The notes under the pieces: model-generated | The model's database searches: none | Told to the model about the DNA's origin: nothing | Seen by the model: only the letters and a program-made list of their open reading frames with translations | Assembly (NCBI GenBank): GCA_020631215.1 | Contig: JAHDHS010000018.1 | Location: forward strand, 1-46,589 | Origin: Hellea sp. | GTDB lineage: Bacteria; Pseudomonadota; Alphaproteobacteria; Caulobacterales; Maricaulaceae | Reading direction: 5' to 3' | DNA: 46,589 nt | Program-made: the position numbers and the translations under genes | Shown here: positions 2,008 through 7,907 of the stretch, one piece after another | Layout: each line of letters opens with the position of its first letter | How positions within the stretch are numbered: position 1 is the stretch's first letter

Positions 2008-2412
2008 ATGGTTAAAGACAATTCCAAAAAATATGAAGATACACTTTACGAAGCGATGAGTAGGCATAGTTCTTTGCCAGCCTTTGGCTTGCTTGTGGGC
2101 TTGGCTTTAATCTGGCTGCTTGTGTTAACACCTCTTAGCAACAACCTGAAAATTGAAGAAACTCTACCATCATTTACCTTATCGCCAACATTGGTAATTT
2201 TCTTAGTGGGTTTGTTAAATATCTACATTTTTGTAAATGCGTTGAATAGAAGACAATTTCGTAAAAAATATCATTCGGCAGCTCGAGAAAAGGGATTTTC
2301 TGAGGCAGAGATAGAAGCTCACATTTCCAAACGCGAAATTGAAAATATGATTATGCGTGGTGATATGCACAGCAATTTGAAAAAAAGTATTGAAAGATTA
2401 CGGCGGGAATAA
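2008..2412 (+). CDS. small two-TM membrane protein of unknown function
   Basis: A 134-residue protein starting at ATG 2008 behind TTGGAGG (1996-2002). Two hydrophobic segments are clear, near residues 28-50 (FGLLVGLALIWLLVL) and 65-88 (LVIFLVGLLNIYIFV). A charged, probably cytoplasmic C-terminal tail of about 45 residues follows, rich in Lys, Arg and Glu and likely helical. I recognise no family. The gene is markedly AT-rich compared with sufC, which begins one base after its stop. Its position suggests co-expression with suf, but it may be a neutral passenger. Acquisition by transfer is possible but unproven. Confidence 0.6.
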   Translation: MVKDNSKKYEDTLYEAMSRHSSLPAFGLLVGLALIWLLVLTPLSNNLKIEETLPSFTLSPTLVIFLVGLLNIYIFVNALNRRQFRKKYHSAAREKGFSEAEIEAHISKREIENMIMRGDMHSNLKKSIERLRRE

Positions 2413-2413
2413 A

Positions 2414-3160
2414 ATGCTAAAAATCAATAATTTAACGGCGGCTGTTGATGCTGGTCAAAAGACGATTTTAGAGGGTCTGTCACTGGAAATACCAGCGGGG
2501 GAAGTCCATGCGGTTATGGGGCCGAACGGTGCCGGGAAATCGACGCTCTCTTATGTCCTGACAGGGCGTGAGGGATATGACGTCACGGGCGGTAAGGTCG
2601 AGCTCGAGGGGGAAAATTTGCTGGATATGGACCCGGAAGAGCGGGCGGCCAAGGGCGTTTTTCTGTCTTTCCAATATCCGCTGGAAATCCCCGGCGTGCC
2701 GACCATGACTTTCTTACGCACGGCCCTGAACGCCCAAAGGAAAGCGCGCGGTGAAGAGGAAATGTCCGCGCCGGAATTTCTAAAAAAATCCAGAGCCTTG
2801 GCCAAAGACCTTAAGATCAAACCGGACATGTTAAAACGCCCGCTGAATGTCGGGTTTTCCGGCGGCGAGAAGAAACGCATGGAAATCTTCCAGATGATGA
2901 TGTTAGAGCCGCGCTTTATCGTCATGGATGAGACTGATAGCGGGCTGGATGTTGATGCCTTGCGCATTGTTGCCGATGGCGTGAACCGGCTGCGTAATCC
3001 GGATCGTGGCATGTTGATCATCACCCATTATCAGCGCCTGCTCGATTATATCGTGCCGGATAAGGTGCATGTCCTCGCAGGCGGTAAAATCGCGGCCAGC
3101 GGCGATGCGGACTTTGCGAAAAAACTCGAAGCGGAAGGTTATGATGCATATGCGGCGTAA
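2414..3160 (+). CDS. sufC: Fe-S cluster assembly ATPase SufC
   Basis: A 248-residue cytoplasmic ABC-type ATPase that powers the SufBC2D scaffold. Walker A is GPNGAGKST, the signature is FSGGEKKRMEI, Walker B is FIVMDETDSGLD, and the switch histidine lies in ITHYQRLL. ETDSGLD is the SufC hallmark. The start is ATG 2414, one base past the preceding stop, giving MLKINNL. A longer reading from TTG 2390 would overlap the membrane gene and has no support. In most bacteria sufC directly follows sufB; here about 2.3 kb of other genes separate them. Confidence 0.97.
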   Translation: MLKINNLTAAVDAGQKTILEGLSLEIPAGEVHAVMGPNGAGKSTLSYVLTGREGYDVTGGKVELEGENLLDMDPEERAAKGVFLSFQYPLEIPGVPTMTFLRTALNAQRKARGEEEMSAPEFLKKSRALAKDLKIKPDMLKRPLNVGFSGGEKKRMEIFQMMMLEPRFIVMDETDSGLDVDALRIVADGVNRLRNPDRGMLIITHYQRLLDYIVPDKVHVLAGGKIAASGDADFAKKLEAEGYDAYAA

Positions 3161-3170
3161 TTCTATTAAT

Positions 3171-3254
3171 CCGCTCACCCCAGCGAAGGCTGGGGCCCAG
3201 AACCAATCAGTGCATATCACAGCACTGGATCCCAGCTTTTGCTGGGATGAGCGG
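3171..3254. repeat. REP-type palindromic element between sufC and sufD
   Basis: Outer arms CCGCTCA (3171-3177) and TGAGCGG (3248-3254) are perfect inverted repeats. Inside are two further perfect hairpins: CCCCAGC/GCTGGGG (3178-3195, loop GAAG) and ATCCCAGC/GCTGGGAT (3229-3248, loop TTTT). The right edge runs directly into the sufD ribosome binding site. It shares CCGCTCACCCC with the element at 1904. Confidence 0.75.
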
Positions 3255-3264
3255 GAGTTGTAAG

Positions 3265-4302
3265 GTGAGTTTAGATTCAAACCAACTCCCCACACGCCGT
3301 GACGAAGCATGGAAGTGGACGGATGTGCGCGGCCATGCGGATGGGCAGGCGGGATTGTCTGCGGCGGGTCGTCCGAAATTTACTCTGCCCGAGGGCGTGA
3401 CAATTGCCGAAGTGCCAAGGGATGATCTGGACACGGATACGCCTATGGCGAAACTCGCCCGCAGCTTTGGGGGCAAGGTCTGGGCGATTGACGTGCCCGC
3501 CGGGCTTCAGCCCTCCGGGCCGCTGATCATTGAAAATCTCAATCGCGGGCATATTCGTATTCGCATTGATATCGGGAAGGGCGCAAAGCTGTCCGTCATC
3601 GAACATCATGCGGGCGATAGCGGCAGCTTCACCAATCTTGATATGACGGTTACATTAAAGGCCAGTGCGGAGCTGGACCGTACGCTTATCCATCATGATC
3701 CCGATGATGCCATGCGAGTTGTCACGGCGCATATCACCGCTTGGAATGAGGCTAAGATCGTTCAGCAGGCTCTGTCATTTGGCGGAAATTTGTCACGGCT
3801 TGAGACGCGCTTGGCGGGTATGGGCAAACATATCGAGGCGGTGCTGAACGGGGCTTATCTGCTCGACGGCAAGCGCCATACGGATATGACAAGCTATATC
3901 GATTTGACCGCGCCGGATTGCACAATCCGCCAAGCCGTGAAGGGTGTGGTTACGGATAAGTCGCGAGGTGTGTTCCAAGGTAAATTTCACGTACGCCGCC
4001 CTGCGCAGCAAACCGATGCCGAAATGCGCCATGACGCGCTGATGCTCTCAGACGCGGCCGAGGTGCGCTCCAAGCCGGAACTGGAGATCTACGCCGATGA
4101 TGTCGAATGCGCCCATGGCAATACAATCGGGCAGTTGGATGAGAGCGCGCTGTTCTACATGCGCCAACGCGGCATTCCGTTGGGGCAGGCGAGGGCATTG
4201 TTGACGGAGGCATTCCTGACCGAAGTCTTTGACGATATGGCGGATGAGGATTTGAAAATCAGTCTACTTGAAAAAATACAGAATTGGTTGGCGGTAACAT
4301 AA
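3265..4302 (+). CDS. sufD: Fe-S cluster assembly protein SufD
   Basis: A 345-residue SufD, the SufB paralogue that partners SufB and SufC in the scaffold complex. The conserved C-terminal block is visible: KPELEIYADDVECAHGNT, then LDESALFYMRQRGI and the final LLTEAFLTEVFDD, including the Cys and His of this family. The N-terminal LPTRRDEAWKWTDV block is typical too. I chose GTG 3265, with GGGAG seven bases upstream. The in-frame ATG at 3247 lies inside the REP palindrome and would have no ribosome binding site. The stop overlaps the next start by one base (TAATG). Confidence 0.95.
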   Translation: MSLDSNQLPTRRDEAWKWTDVRGHADGQAGLSAAGRPKFTLPEGVTIAEVPRDDLDTDTPMAKLARSFGGKVWAIDVPAGLQPSGPLIIENLNRGHIRIRIDIGKGAKLSVIEHHAGDSGSFTNLDMTVTLKASAELDRTLIHHDPDDAMRVVTAHITAWNEAKIVQQALSFGGNLSRLETRLAGMGKHIEAVLNGAYLLDGKRHTDMTSYIDLTAPDCTIRQAVKGVVTDKSRGVFQGKFHVRRPAQQTDAEMRHDALMLSDAAEVRSKPELEIYADDVECAHGNTIGQLDESALFYMRQRGIPLGQARALLTEAFLTEVFDDMADEDLKISLLEKIQNWLAVT

Positions 4303-4472
4303 TGGAGACGCCTGATCTCATATCAGCTTTTATAGGGGCTAATCTCTATTTGTTTGGCCGGTTGATGGTGACGTATAAAGGAGACAAGAAATTTTTCCTT
4401 TATTTGCGTATGGCGGGGCTCGTGATTTTGGTGATTAGCCTTGTAAAAATTGCTTTCGGGGTTTTGTCATGA
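4302..4472 (+). CDS. 56-residue membrane protein between sufD and sufS
   Basis: A very small protein starting at ATG 4302, sharing one base with the sufD stop. Its own TGA overlaps the sufS ATG (ATGA). A weak N-terminal hydrophobic patch (LISAFIGANLYLFGRLM) is followed by a charged turn (KGDKKFF) and a strong TM segment (AGLVILVISLVKIAFGVL). No family is recognised. The double overlap makes it translationally coupled to both suf genes, which supports real expression despite its size. AT content is higher than in its neighbours. Confidence 0.6.
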   Translation: METPDLISAFIGANLYLFGRLMVTYKGDKKFFLYLRMAGLVILVISLVKIAFGVLS

Positions 4473-5686
4473 CATTTGATGTCGATGTTATCCGCGCCCA
4501 ATTTCCGATCCTCTCGCGTGAGATCAATGGGCGGCCCATCGCCTATCTGGACAATGCCGCCTCTGCGCAGAAGCCACAGGCGGTAATTGATGCCCTGACC
4601 CGGCAGATGAGCCACAGCTATGCCAATGTGCATCGCGGGCTGCACACTATGGCGAATGAAACCACGGAAGCCTATGAAGGCGCGCGGGCCAAGGTCGCGG
4701 CGTTTCTCGGCGCGCCGAAGCCGAATAATATCGTCTTCACCAAAGGCGCGACAGAGGCACTGAATTTGGCTGCCTACGGCCTCGCCCATGAAATCAAACC
4801 CGGCGATGAGATTATCATCAGCCAGATGGAGCATCACTCCAATATCGTGCCCTGGCATTTCCTGCGCGAGCGTTATGGCGCGGTGATCAAATTTATCCCG
4901 GTGACGGAGGCAGGCGAGCTTGATTTGGAGGCGTTCAAATCCCTGCTATCCGTCAAGACAAAAATCGTGTCCGTCGTGCATATGTCCAATGTGCTGGGGA
5001 CGATTAACCCCGTCAAACAAATGGGTGAATGGGCCCATGCGGCGGGGGCGATTTTCATCGTCGATGGCACGCAGGCCGCTGTGCATATGCCGATTGATGT
5101 TCTCGATCTGGATGTCGATCTGTTTTGTATGACCGGGCACAAGCTCTACGGCCCCTCCGGTATCGGCGCGCTTTATGGCAAGGCGGATATGCTAAGCCGG
5201 ATGCAGCCCTTTAATGGCGGGGGCGAGATGATCGAAGACGTCTATGAAGACCGCGTCACCTATAATGATCCGCCGCATAAATTCGAGGCTGGCACGCCGC
5301 CGATTCTGCAGGCGATTGGCTTGGGGGCCGCGATTGACTGGTATCGGCAATTTGACCCGCAAGATATCCATTTGCATGAAATGGCGGTGTACCATCACGC
5401 GCTGGACGGGCTGCGGTCGATCAACAGCTTTCGCCTGATCGGGGACGCGAAGGAAAAGGGCTCGGTGCTCGCTTTCAATCTCGAAGGCGCGCATGCTCAT
5501 GACGTCGCGCAAATCCTGGATAAATATGGCATTGCCGTGCGTGCCGGGCAGCATTGCACACAGCCCTTGATGGAGAGCCGCGGCATTCATTCCACCGCTC
5601 GGGCCAGTTTCGGGATTTACAATACGCTGGACGAAGCTGACCGCCTGATCGAAGGGGTGAAGAAGGCGGCTACTTTTTTATCTTAG
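4469..5686 (+). CDS. sufS: cysteine desulfurase SufS
   Basis: A 405-residue PLP-dependent class V aminotransferase-fold enzyme that takes sulfur from cysteine as a persulfide for cluster assembly. The N-terminus has PILSREINGRPIAYLDNAAS. The PLP-binding lysine is in MTGHKLYGPSGIG, and VDGTQA precedes it. The catalytic cysteine lies in RAGQHCTQPL near the C-terminus, with the group II context seen in SufS. Full length. The start overlaps the upstream small gene by ATGA. No SufE or SufU partner is visible in the window. Confidence 0.96.
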   Translation: MTFDVDVIRAQFPILSREINGRPIAYLDNAASAQKPQAVIDALTRQMSHSYANVHRGLHTMANETTEAYEGARAKVAAFLGAPKPNNIVFTKGATEALNLAAYGLAHEIKPGDEIIISQMEHHSNIVPWHFLRERYGAVIKFIPVTEAGELDLEAFKSLLSVKTKIVSVVHMSNVLGTINPVKQMGEWAHAAGAIFIVDGTQAAVHMPIDVLDLDVDLFCMTGHKLYGPSGIGALYGKADMLSRMQPFNGGGEMIEDVYEDRVTYNDPPHKFEAGTPPILQAIGLGAAIDWYRQFDPQDIHLHEMAVYHHALDGLRSINSFRLIGDAKEKGSVLAFNLEGAHAHDVAQILDKYGIAVRAGQHCTQPLMESRGIHSTARASFGIYNTLDEADRLIEGVKKAATFLS

Positions 5687-5704
5687 ATGTGATACTATAT
5701 AGAG

Positions 5705-6190
5705 ATGAACATGGACGACATAACAGACAGACAGCGCCAAGCGGAAGCTATGGCCAATGCGCAGATACCGGGCCTAGATTCGCAAAAAGTGACTCCGGAA
5801 AATGCGAGCGGGCAGGTTGTGTCTAAATCCCGCGACACGATTGATGTGTCCGGCGCGCCCACCGAGCCGCCGACGGACGCAGAGATCGAGCAGATCACGA
5901 CAGATGTGATCGGGCAGCTGAAATCTGTCTATGATCCGGAAATCCCGGTCGACATCTATGAGCTGGGTTTGATCTATAAGGTCGAACTCGAAGATGACCG
6001 CACGCTAAAAGTCGATATGACGCTGACCGCGCCGGGCTGTCCTGTGGCGGGCGAGATGCCCGAATGGGTGCGCGAAGCCTGCGAGGTCGTGGCCGGTGTG
6101 CGCCGTGTGGAAGTGTCCATGACCTTCGATCCGCCCTGGACGCCGGACCGGATGTCCGATGAGGCGAAACTTGAATTGAATATGCTATGA
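5705..6190 (+). CDS. sufT: SufT-type MIP18/DUF59 Fe-S maturation factor
   Basis: A 161-residue protein whose C-terminal 105 residues form a MIP18 (DUF59) domain. SVYDPEIPVDIYELGLIYKV, then LTAPGCPVAGEMP with the conserved cysteine, and VEVSMTFDPPWTPDRMS at the end are diagnostic. Such proteins (SufT, PaaD-like) assist Fe-S protein maturation and usually sit in suf operons. The first 55 residues are a polar, probably disordered extension. ATG 5705 or ATG 5711 are both possible starts. The stop overlaps the sufA ATG. Confidence 0.9.
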   Translation: MNMDDITDRQRQAEAMANAQIPGLDSQKVTPENASGQVVSKSRDTIDVSGAPTEPPTDAEIEQITTDVIGQLKSVYDPEIPVDIYELGLIYKVELEDDRTLKVDMTLTAPGCPVAGEMPEWVREACEVVAGVRRVEVSMTFDPPWTPDRMSDEAKLELNML

Positions 6191-6570
6191 CTGAGGTAAC
6201 GACGACAACTACCAGAGCCCGCCGTCCACGGCCAAAGCTCGTTACGCTGACTGACGCAGCGGCAGATCGCGTACGCGAAATCCTGGCCGAGCGCGGGCAG
6301 GGCTATCTGCGTGTAGGCGTTAAAAATGGCGGCTGTGCGGGTATGGAATATCTCATGGATTATGTCGCCGAGCCGGAAAAATTCGACGAGATTGTCGAGG
6401 ATAAAGGCGTGACCATTGTGGTCGATGCCAAAGCTGTGCTGTTCCTGCTTGGCTCCGTCGTCGACTACGAGGTTGACGTGCTGTCTTCCCGTTTCACCTT
6501 CAAGAATCCGAACCAGACCGATGCGTGTGGCTGCGGGGAGAGCGTGACGATCATTCCGGCGGCTGAATAA
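6187..6570 (+). CDS. sufA: A-type Fe-S carrier SufA/IscA
   Basis: A 127-residue HesB/IscA-family protein with an N-terminal Thr/Arg-rich tail. The three cluster-binding cysteines are in place: NGGCAGMEY and the terminal CGCGES. It accepts clusters from the SufBCD scaffold and passes them to apo-proteins. The ATG at 6187 overlaps the SufT stop. It is the last gene of the suf transcription unit; the tRNA on the other strand ends 10 bases downstream. I see no clear terminator in that gap. Confidence 0.92.
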   Translation: MTEVTTTTTRARRPRPKLVTLTDAAADRVREILAERGQGYLRVGVKNGGCAGMEYLMDYVAEPEKFDEIVEDKGVTIVVDAKAVLFLLGSVVDYEVDVLSSRFTFKNPNQTDACGCGESVTIIPAAE

Positions 6571-6579
6571 GCCGGTAAG

Positions 6580-6667
6580 TGGTGCGGGCGGCCGGAATCG
6601 AACCGGCACTCCGAAACTCGGAACAAGATTTTAAGTCTTGCGTGTCTACCAATTCCACCACGCCCGC
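6580..6667 (-). tRNA. tRNA-Leu (anticodon UAA)
   Basis: On the minus strand, a 7-bp acceptor stem GCGGGCG/CGCCCGC, a TGGTAGAC D-loop region, anticodon stem CAAGA/TCTTG with loop CTTAAAA, a class II long variable arm (TTCCGAGTTTCGGAG) and T-arm CCGGTTCGATTCCGG can be folded by eye. The anticodon UAA corresponds to plus-strand bases 6631-6633. The 3' CCA is encoded (6580-6582); the mature body without CCA is 6583-6667. It is convergent with sufA and divergent from cysD. Confidence 0.95.
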
Positions 6668-6772
6668 AGCAGAATGAGAGCGCGTGCTAGCGCGATCATC
6701 ACATTTTCGCAATCGATTTTGATGACCTCTTTACATTTTCTCTCGTAACTCTATATGTGCACAATATTAATC

Positions 6773-6788
6773 GTGGGATGTTTCCCAC
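6773..6788. promoter_or_regulatory. 16-bp perfect palindrome upstream of cysD, candidate operator
   Basis: GTGGGA (6773-6778), four bases, then TCCCAC (6783-6788). It lies directly upstream of the AAAAGG ribosome binding site and ATG 6801 of the HTH-CysD gene. It could be an operator or an RNA hairpin close to the ribosome binding site. The role is inferred from position only. Confidence 0.4.
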
Positions 6789-6800
6789 AAAAGGTGCGTA

Positions 6801-7907
6801 ATGAGCTTGATCACAGACTTCATCACCCGGGCTGAGAGCCTTTCAGAGCGTTCGGGGCAGTCACTCTCGACGATCTCACGGAAGATATTCAATGACGGCA
6901 AAGGCATTGCCCGCCTAAAAGAAGGCGGTCAGTGCACGCTCAAGACGATGGATGCGGCTTTGGAAAAACTTGCAGAGCTTGAAGCCGAGGCCGATGGCTC
7001 TGCTGCACTCGCCATGAGCCATCTGGATCGCCTTGAGGCCGAAAGCATGCACATTATGCGTGAGGTCGCGAGCCAGTGTCAGAACCCCGTCATGCTTTAC
7101 TCGGTTGGCAAGGACAGCTCCGTGATGCTTCATTTGGCGCAAAAGGCGTTTTTTCCGTCTGTGCCGCCATTCCCTCTGCTGCATGTGGATACGACCTGGA
7201 AATTCAAGGAAATGATCGAATTTCGGGACCGGCGCGCCAAAGAAGTCGGCATGGAACTGATCGTTCACATCAATCCGGACGGTGTGCGAGACAATGTCGG
7301 CCCCTTCACTCATGGATCGGCTGTACATACAGACATCATGAAAACGCAGGGCCTAAAGCAGGCTTTGGATAAGTATAAATTCGACGCAGCCTTTGGCGGG
7401 GCGCGGCGGGATGAGGAAAAATCCCGCGCGAAAGAGCGTATCTTTAGCTTCCGGTCAGAAAATCACCGTTGGGACGCCAAGAACCAGCGGCCAGAGCTTT
7501 GGAATATTTATAATACGCGCGTTCACAAAGGCGAGAGCATGCGCGTCTTTCCGCTGTCCAATTGGACGGAGCTGGATATTTGGCAATATATTGAACGCGA
7601 GCAAATCCCGATCCCTGATCTGTATCTGTCCAAAAAACGTCCGGTCGTGGAAAAGGACGGCGTTCTGATCATGGTCGATGATGACCGTATGCCCATCAGG
7701 CCGGATGATGTGGTCGAAGAGAAGATGGTGCGTTTTCGCACGCTCGGCTGTTACCCCTTAACCGGAGCCGTGGAGAGTGAGGCGGATACGCTGCCGGAGG
7801 TTATTCAGGAAATGCTGCTAACCACGACTTCTGAGCGCCAAGGCCGCGTCATTGACAATGATGTCGGCGCGTCAATGGAGCAAAAGAAAGAAGAGGGGTA
7901 TTTCTAA
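6801..7907 (+). CDS. cysD: sulfate adenylyltransferase subunit CysD with N-terminal HTH-like domain
   Basis: The catalytic small subunit of ATP sulfurylase, which makes APS from sulfate and ATP together with the GTPase CysN. From residue 72 ([19 protein letters not shown]) it aligns over its full length with ordinary CysD: PP-loop [47 protein letters not shown] and terminal KKEEGYF. Ordinary CysD is about 300 residues; this one is 368. The extra 70 residues resemble the small alphaproteobacterial HTH module: [19 protein letters not shown], then [20 protein letters not shown] 6801 has AAGG six bases upstream. The internal ATG 7014, where normal CysD would begin, has no ribosome binding site, so the fusion looks real. 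Confidence 0.93.

Follow-up and report, generated by a model that had tools for sequence, protein, structure and literature searches.

A CysD protein with a predicted phage-type helix-turn-helix head and a conserved candidate operator before its gene

The cysD locus of Hellea sp. and its N-terminal extension

By examining a stretch of 46,589 nucleotides of DNA from Hellea sp. (the window), we found that positions 6801-7907 (+) form a single continuous open reading frame (ORF) of 368 amino acids in the ORF list of the window, laid out as a helix-turn-helix (HTH) module of 62 residues, a short linker and a complete CysD. The features of the locus are the following.

6730..6757, +, possible promoter: TTTACA (6730-6735), 16 bp, TATATG (6752-6757); by eye, weak
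6773..6788, no strand, predicted operator GTGGGATGTTTCCCAC: exact palindrome, conserved before HTH-CysD genes
6790..6794, +, probable ribosome binding site AAAGG; by eye
6801..6986, +, HTH module, residues 1-62: AlphaFold2, Foldseek against the PDB, phrog_7669 match
6987..7013, +, linker, residues 63-71: low pLDDT in the full-length model, variable length in relatives
7014..7907, +, CysD catalytic part (sulfate adenylyltransferase subunit 2), including the stop: TIGR02039, NF009214, PF01507
7907..9820, +, cysN-cysC fusion, the next gene: NF004035 PRK05506, 1053 bits, cut-off 715

The window protein has the same catalytic part and conserved motifs as an ordinary CysD (TIGR02039), with a cysN-cysC gene next to it. 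Residues 75-368 score 502.5 bits against TIGR02039 (cut-off 396.6) and residues 54-368 score 542 bits against NF009214 (cut-off 413), so that both curated cut-offs are passed. Whereas ordinary CysD proteins start at an [S/T]HLDRLE stretch, the window protein has 71 further residues that carry the HTH, the classical start being Met72 (7014). The ATG of cysN-cysC at 7907 overlaps the cysD stop, giving the order cysD then cysN that is expected of a CysD, and both genes probably form one operon. Just upstream of the cysD control region lies a tRNA-Leu gene (anticodon TAA; 6580-6667, minus strand), and the genes upstream at 2390-6570 presumably belong to an iron-sulfur assembly (suf) cluster, which their translations resemble. 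The assignment of a promoter at 6730-6757 is weak, since a stricter scan of 6560-6830 gave no promoter-like site.

The S-x-G-K-D-S motif is retained in the enzyme part. In an alignment of 42 CysD parts (the window and 41 of the 80 scan loci described below), the window also keeps, save for one residue, the second motif stretch that is invariant in 42/42. Judged by these motifs, the CysD part appears intact and would be expected to work as an ATP sulfurylase. By searching the 2.5-Mb assembly (96% complete) for CysD, we obtained one full match and a single other, weak one that covers only residues 96-162 (E 1.8e-4); a second CysD was not found there.

Of the 30 best-scoring CysD loci, 25 have the extension. 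Also, when named genomes were scanned with the extension alone, 122 stretches matched and 91 were confirmed, the best 80 of which were kept in the degenerate-pattern scan. All of these best 80 of 91 (80/80, L114 being read past masked bases) encode the HTH-CysD fusion, and their hosts include Hellea, Litorimonas, Robiginitomaculum, Parvularcula, Marinicaulis and some sphingomonads. Many of the 80 loci are the same records as genomes in our other sets, and the sets are not summed. On a tree of CysD bodies (42 fused and 25 unfused), the distribution of the fusion needs 4 gains or losses, at least 2 of them forced by supported branches. From the sequences compared, the fusions are judged to be related by descent.

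The original prediction held that the frame runs uninterrupted into CysD, which the 368-residue ORF confirms, and that only the upstream ATG has a ribosome binding site. The latter is true of the window, where no site comparable to AAAGG (6790-6794) is seen by eye before 7014, but it fails as a general argument, since in several relatives (e.g. L016, L017, L020 and L021) the palindrome extends right up to the ATG, so that a ribosome site would not fit in between. Translation could instead begin at Met72, the upstream frame being a leader or a decaying remnant, and it fits this alternative that the classical start is an ATG in 53 of 78 fusions (78 of the best 80 loci, L114 and L120 left out). 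In 24 of the same 78, however, this position holds no ATG, GTG or TTG (CTG in 12, CTC in 10, CTA in 2), so that in these genes translation most likely begins upstream. Moreover, the differences between the window and seven close relatives fall mostly on third codon positions (e.g. 21/9/42 for L002), and the alignment of the extension has 12 invariant non-initiator residues, 11 of them in a compact block from T24 to T49 (T24, R27, K28, N31, D32, G33, K34, R38, G42, G43 and T49) and the twelfth being L57. On these three grounds and on that of the confident fold described below, a start at Met72, which we find scarcely credible, was set aside.

AlphaFold2, run with 70 sequences, gave a head model of four helices (residues 3-18, 22-30, 35-40 and 47-61) with a pLDDT of 95.0 and a pTM of 0.78, so that structure prediction bears out the HTH first proposed within residues 1-71. 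By comparing this model with the PDB in Foldseek, we obtained lambda-repressor-like DNA-binding proteins at all ranks from 1 to 24, including HipB, SinR, C.AhdI, ClgR, a named XRE regulator and 1PRA, which we take to be the 434 repressor. Rank 1 was C.Esp1396I (probability 0.97, TM 0.60, 14% identity). No Foldseek match of the head to the PDB reached E <= 0.001 (best 0.30), which is in part due to the shortness of the domain. The four to five helices, with the HTH in helices 2-3, that define lambda-repressor-like (XRE/Cro/CI) domains are reflected in the four-helix model and in the Foldseek ranks, and we are confident in assigning the modelled head to HTH proteins of this kind. Sequence profiles were less informative: Pfam holds no family for the window head, which does not reach the gathering score of an HTH profile, and gives weak, mixed matches in some heads (LacI in 4/23 and HTH_3 in 2/23 members); NCBIfam has no family of its own for the first 71 residues; and a sequence search of the PDB with the head gave weak matches, the best being a LacI-type regulator (E 0.32). 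The full-length model (mean pLDDT 75.3) has the same head helices, with a mean pLDDT of 66 for residues 61-70, around the linker, versus 91 and 81 in the flanking blocks. The stretch before the CysD [S/T]HL motif measures 68 to 105 residues in the parsed relatives and 72 in the window.

A conserved palindrome before the fused genes

The palindrome reported at 6773-6788 is indeed exact: GTGGGATGTTTCCCAC occurs there and, as an exact copy, nowhere else in the 2.5-Mb assembly. By allowing at most 2 mismatches in the twelve positions of GTGGGA-N4-TCCCAC, we found a site upstream of 77/80 fusions within 260 bp and of 74/80 within 200 bp (23 exact), and none at 2 mismatches in 3/80 (L118, L129 and L134), all among the best 80 of 91 loci. 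Control stretches at -1000 to -800 had the site in 0/74 and mononucleotide shuffles in 0.5%. In the site profile, the GGG and CCC positions stand out and the middle is A/T-rich. A chance palindrome at 6773-6788 was considered and set aside; the two one-mismatch copies elsewhere in the assembly (L032, L033) lie inside long ORFs and were themselves taken as chance.

Within the same order, CysD genes that lack the module had the site within about 600 bp in 1/34; these 34 controls are what remained of 40 CysD genes once 6 fusions among them had been recognised and reassigned, and 5 of those 6 have the site. Likewise, the unfused CysD genes among the 30 best-scoring loci had it in 0/5 within 450 bp. 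On the CysD-body tree (L208 and L210 left out), operator and module need 4 changes each, with 2 independent pairs on well-supported branches, which are too few for a test. One genome (G563; L141, L154, L198, L199) has two CysD genes without HTH and without operator that group with the fused L083, and a joint loss of head and site is possible there.

The module is also found on a methyltransferase-like protein of about 460 residues, which we call so for its glycine-rich motif; three such proteins that were tested matched no Pfam family, and NCBIfam gave one hint (E 0.043). First, such fusions of one family (L175-L179) have the site in 5/5, query included, 3 of them exact, versus 0/2 for their unfused relatives; L180 has neither site nor head. 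Second, four more distant methyltransferase-like fusions (L040, L042, L043 and L045) have no site. Third, a standalone head (L044/L186) is preceded by an exact copy of the site and three others by the variant GGGATAAATCCC, while a site of this sequence is missing from most of the remaining genes with related heads. These sequence comparisons suggest that the site accompanies the module, not CysD alone.

Across 60 genomes, the exact pattern occurs 24 times in 20 genomes. Twenty-two of these sites were found in the window's family, each no more than about 110 bp upstream of an HTH-CysD gene, and 2 lie elsewhere; a reversed control pattern gave 4. With one exact copy in the own genome and 2/24 exact sites away from HTH-CysD in the 60 genomes, no wider regulon was found. 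A palindrome this short could be recognised by a separate regulator, the head then serving for protein contacts only. However, the site tracks the module and is missing without it, the exact sites in the window's family were, in these 60 genomes, found only at this operon, and no other convincing module copy was found in the own assembly (next best E 0.68, partial). A separate regulator is very improbable in our view, and it was set aside because the site tracks the module and a second module copy is lacking.

The palindrome could also fold, as RNA, into a hairpin or terminator that controls translation and has nothing to do with the head, given its six-pair stem and four-base loop just before the ATG and one minus-strand site predicted to be terminator-like. 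Yet 115 of the 149 departures from consensus in 107 imperfect sites break a pair, 30 lead to G-U and only 4 stay Watson-Crick, and such mostly pair-breaking changes favour a DNA site over a hairpin. Besides, head-less CysD genes hardly ever have the site upstream, and it is present before the unrelated methyltransferase-like protein with the same head. An RNA hairpin, to which we give hardly any weight, was set aside for the pair-breaking departures and for this sharing of the site. We regard the palindrome, from its sequence and distribution, as the probable operator of the head.

Proposed self-repression of cysD-cysNC and related systems

The fusion, the predicted HTH fold, the conserved site, its co-occurrence with the module and the one-operon spread of the exact sites are all computed. 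Building on them, we consider it likely that CysD with its Cro-like head represses its own cysD-cysNC operon. Two heads would bind GTGGGA-N4-TCCCAC just before the gene as a dimer and, once bound, block transcription of cysD-cysNC, so that the enzyme would limit its own synthesis. Repression might in addition be modulated by the state of the enzyme, that is by binding of CysNC, ATP, sulfate or APS; this is the least certain step, on which we lean slightly towards doubt. The conditional parts of the proposal are that the enzyme is active, that the head binds as a dimer, that binding represses and does not activate, and that such modulation occurs. The suggestion that an HTH on CysD couples sulfate activation to transcription gains support from the co-occurrence of palindrome and module across CysD fusions and in one family of the unrelated methyltransferase-like protein. 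Such repression would suggest a control route of cysD-cysNC, for which the locus supplies an exact candidate operator, and would add sulfate activation to the few enzymes that regulate their own genes via a fused DNA-binding domain.

The modulation step would fall away under plain dosage autoregulation, with no metabolite or CysNC signal and the enzyme part as a mere carrier. In agreement with this, the linker varies in length and has a pLDDT below both flanks, so that tight domain coupling would be unneeded, and the predicted fold of the head resembles that of small controller proteins, which are not known to need a ligand. Dosage alone gives, however, no reason why CysD in particular retains the fusion across several genera. 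We see it as a serious, though minority, possibility; it is a narrower form of the proposed self-repression, and the probabilities of the two overlap.

The head could also bind the site and activate, or switch with both signs. The nearest folds are those of restriction-modification controller proteins, which can both activate and repress, and many fusions have two sites, with 56 of the 128 sites starting between -40 and -16 and 58 between -150 and -91. But the proximal site stands right before the start codon, and it lies downstream of the guessed -10 box in 29/35 loci (a count without shuffled control), which is a blocking position. Where two sites go together with an acceptable guess at the promoter (21 loci), the guessed promoter lies between the sites in 11 (also without shuffled control). 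Activation is, to our mind, unlikely, and repression is the reading that we retain.

Enzymes with a DNA-binding role are known as trigger enzymes, and the portions of two articles available to us (PMC8249747, PMC6978683) describe PutA, BirA and NadR as such, with PutA as a trigger regulator of a single target, its own putA/putP region. A sulfate-activating enzyme is not named among the trigger enzymes in these portions (PMC8249747, PMC6978683). HTH-CysD has in common with PutA, BirA and NadR an enzyme with a DNA-binding role, whereas reactions and folds differ. PutA has a ribbon-helix-helix and BirA a winged helix. An intact enzyme part, as trigger enzymes have, appears to be present here too, with motifs conserved in 42/42. 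BzdR, in the portion of the article available to us (PMC3602430), consists of an N-terminal DNA-binding domain, a linker and an enzyme-derived domain; the protein binds an effector, and the loss of kinase activity is described there as essential for its becoming a regulator (PMC3602430). No such loss of catalysis is apparent in HTH-CysD, whose motifs are intact and beside which no second CysD was found. Since the motifs are kept in 42/42, HTH-CysD would belong with the trigger enzymes and not, like BzdR, with the enzymes that have lost their activity.

The controller proteins of the C.Esp1396I type, which have the nearest solved fold at 14% identity, differ from HTH-CysD in having no enzyme fusion. 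These small HTH proteins act at operators in the promoters of their own genes. PAPS reductase A of Tuber melanosporum is a sulfur-assimilation enzyme with a transcription role, according to the portion of the article available to us (PMC4848566); it differs from HTH-CysD in being eukaryotic and in activating via a C-terminal peptide, not an HTH (PMC4848566). An enzyme that represses its own operon via a fused domain is known; new here are the kind of enzyme, its head of phage type and the operator. No description of a fused CysD regulator was found in the open-access literature searched, which omits most subscription papers, and within these bounds the original impression that an HTH-bearing CysD is undescribed holds.

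Phage relatives and other carriers of the module

Among phage families, the window head matches phrog_7669 best (E 1.8e-7, residues 1-59 on profile positions 6-64 of 105), a family annotated as of unknown function, which is listed for 70/70 members of the head alignment at a loose limit of E <= 1 (best 1e-9). As phrog_7669 has no curated cut-off, a significant match over most of the domain was taken as membership. Searching phages by tblastn gave nothing with the window head and three records (two phages) with the distant standalone head L053 (E 2e-3 to 5e-3). The proteins weakly matched by L053 in Rhizobium phage RR1-A and Acetobacter phage phiAX1 are annotated as hypothetical and are clear phrog_7669 members; their HTH is homologous to the window head, and they differ from HTH-CysD in being standalone proteins of 84 and 90 aa with no enzyme.

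In both phages the phrog_7669 gene is divergent from the gene of a CI-like repressor with a Peptidase_S24 domain (L219 1725-2755, L220 1691-2773). Divergence from the CI repressor gene is the place of cro in lambda-type switches. Also, a single perfect 5-6-5 inverted repeat is present between the divergent genes of each phage (GCGTA/TACGC and GCGGG/CCCGC), although 87 and 69 of 1000 shuffles do equally well, i.e. about 7-9% by chance, so that the repeats lend mild support. A brief look at the standalone phrog_7669 loci L211, L213 and L217 found no GTGGGA-type site in the stretch inspected. By analogy with lambda-type switches, the phrog_7669 proteins of RR1-A and phiAX1 may be their Cro, and we infer a Cro-like role. 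The CysD head and its type of site look as if they had been taken over from a Cro/CI switch of phage type.

A class-wide search with the module matched 19/385 genomes, own included, and a broader head profile matched 48/372 genomes of the class, mostly in short standalone proteins. We entertain, as a possibility that falls a little short of convincing us, that a phage Cro-type cassette has been captured repeatedly by alphaproteobacterial enzymes (ATP sulfurylase, the methyltransferase-like protein, possibly fumarase and AMP nucleosidase) and that repression by CysD is tuned by the state of the sulfate-activating complex. If so, each enzyme would be the repressor of its own single operon, and sulfur control would do without a separate regulator. 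That an unrelated protein shares both head and site suggests that phage switches may serve as raw material for self-regulating enzymes.

Three further kinds of carrier were observed. First, a class II fumarase (TIGR00979, 772.6 bits; L049 1501-3114, G075) carries the same kind of HTH as an in-frame fusion in one genome, with no CysD-type site upstream. Second, an AMP nucleosidase (NF006142, 604 bits) has the same kind of HTH (L225 1266-2972, the same gene as in L050; G229); in this one genome, a perfect 6-4-6 palindrome that differs in sequence from the CysD site, ATTGCA-atta-TGCAAT, starts 33 bp before the matched HTH segment. Third, two neighbouring HTH matches occur in several frames of 147 to 449 residues (G133, G242, G342, G344 and G419), and by these matches tandem double-HTH versions seem to exist.
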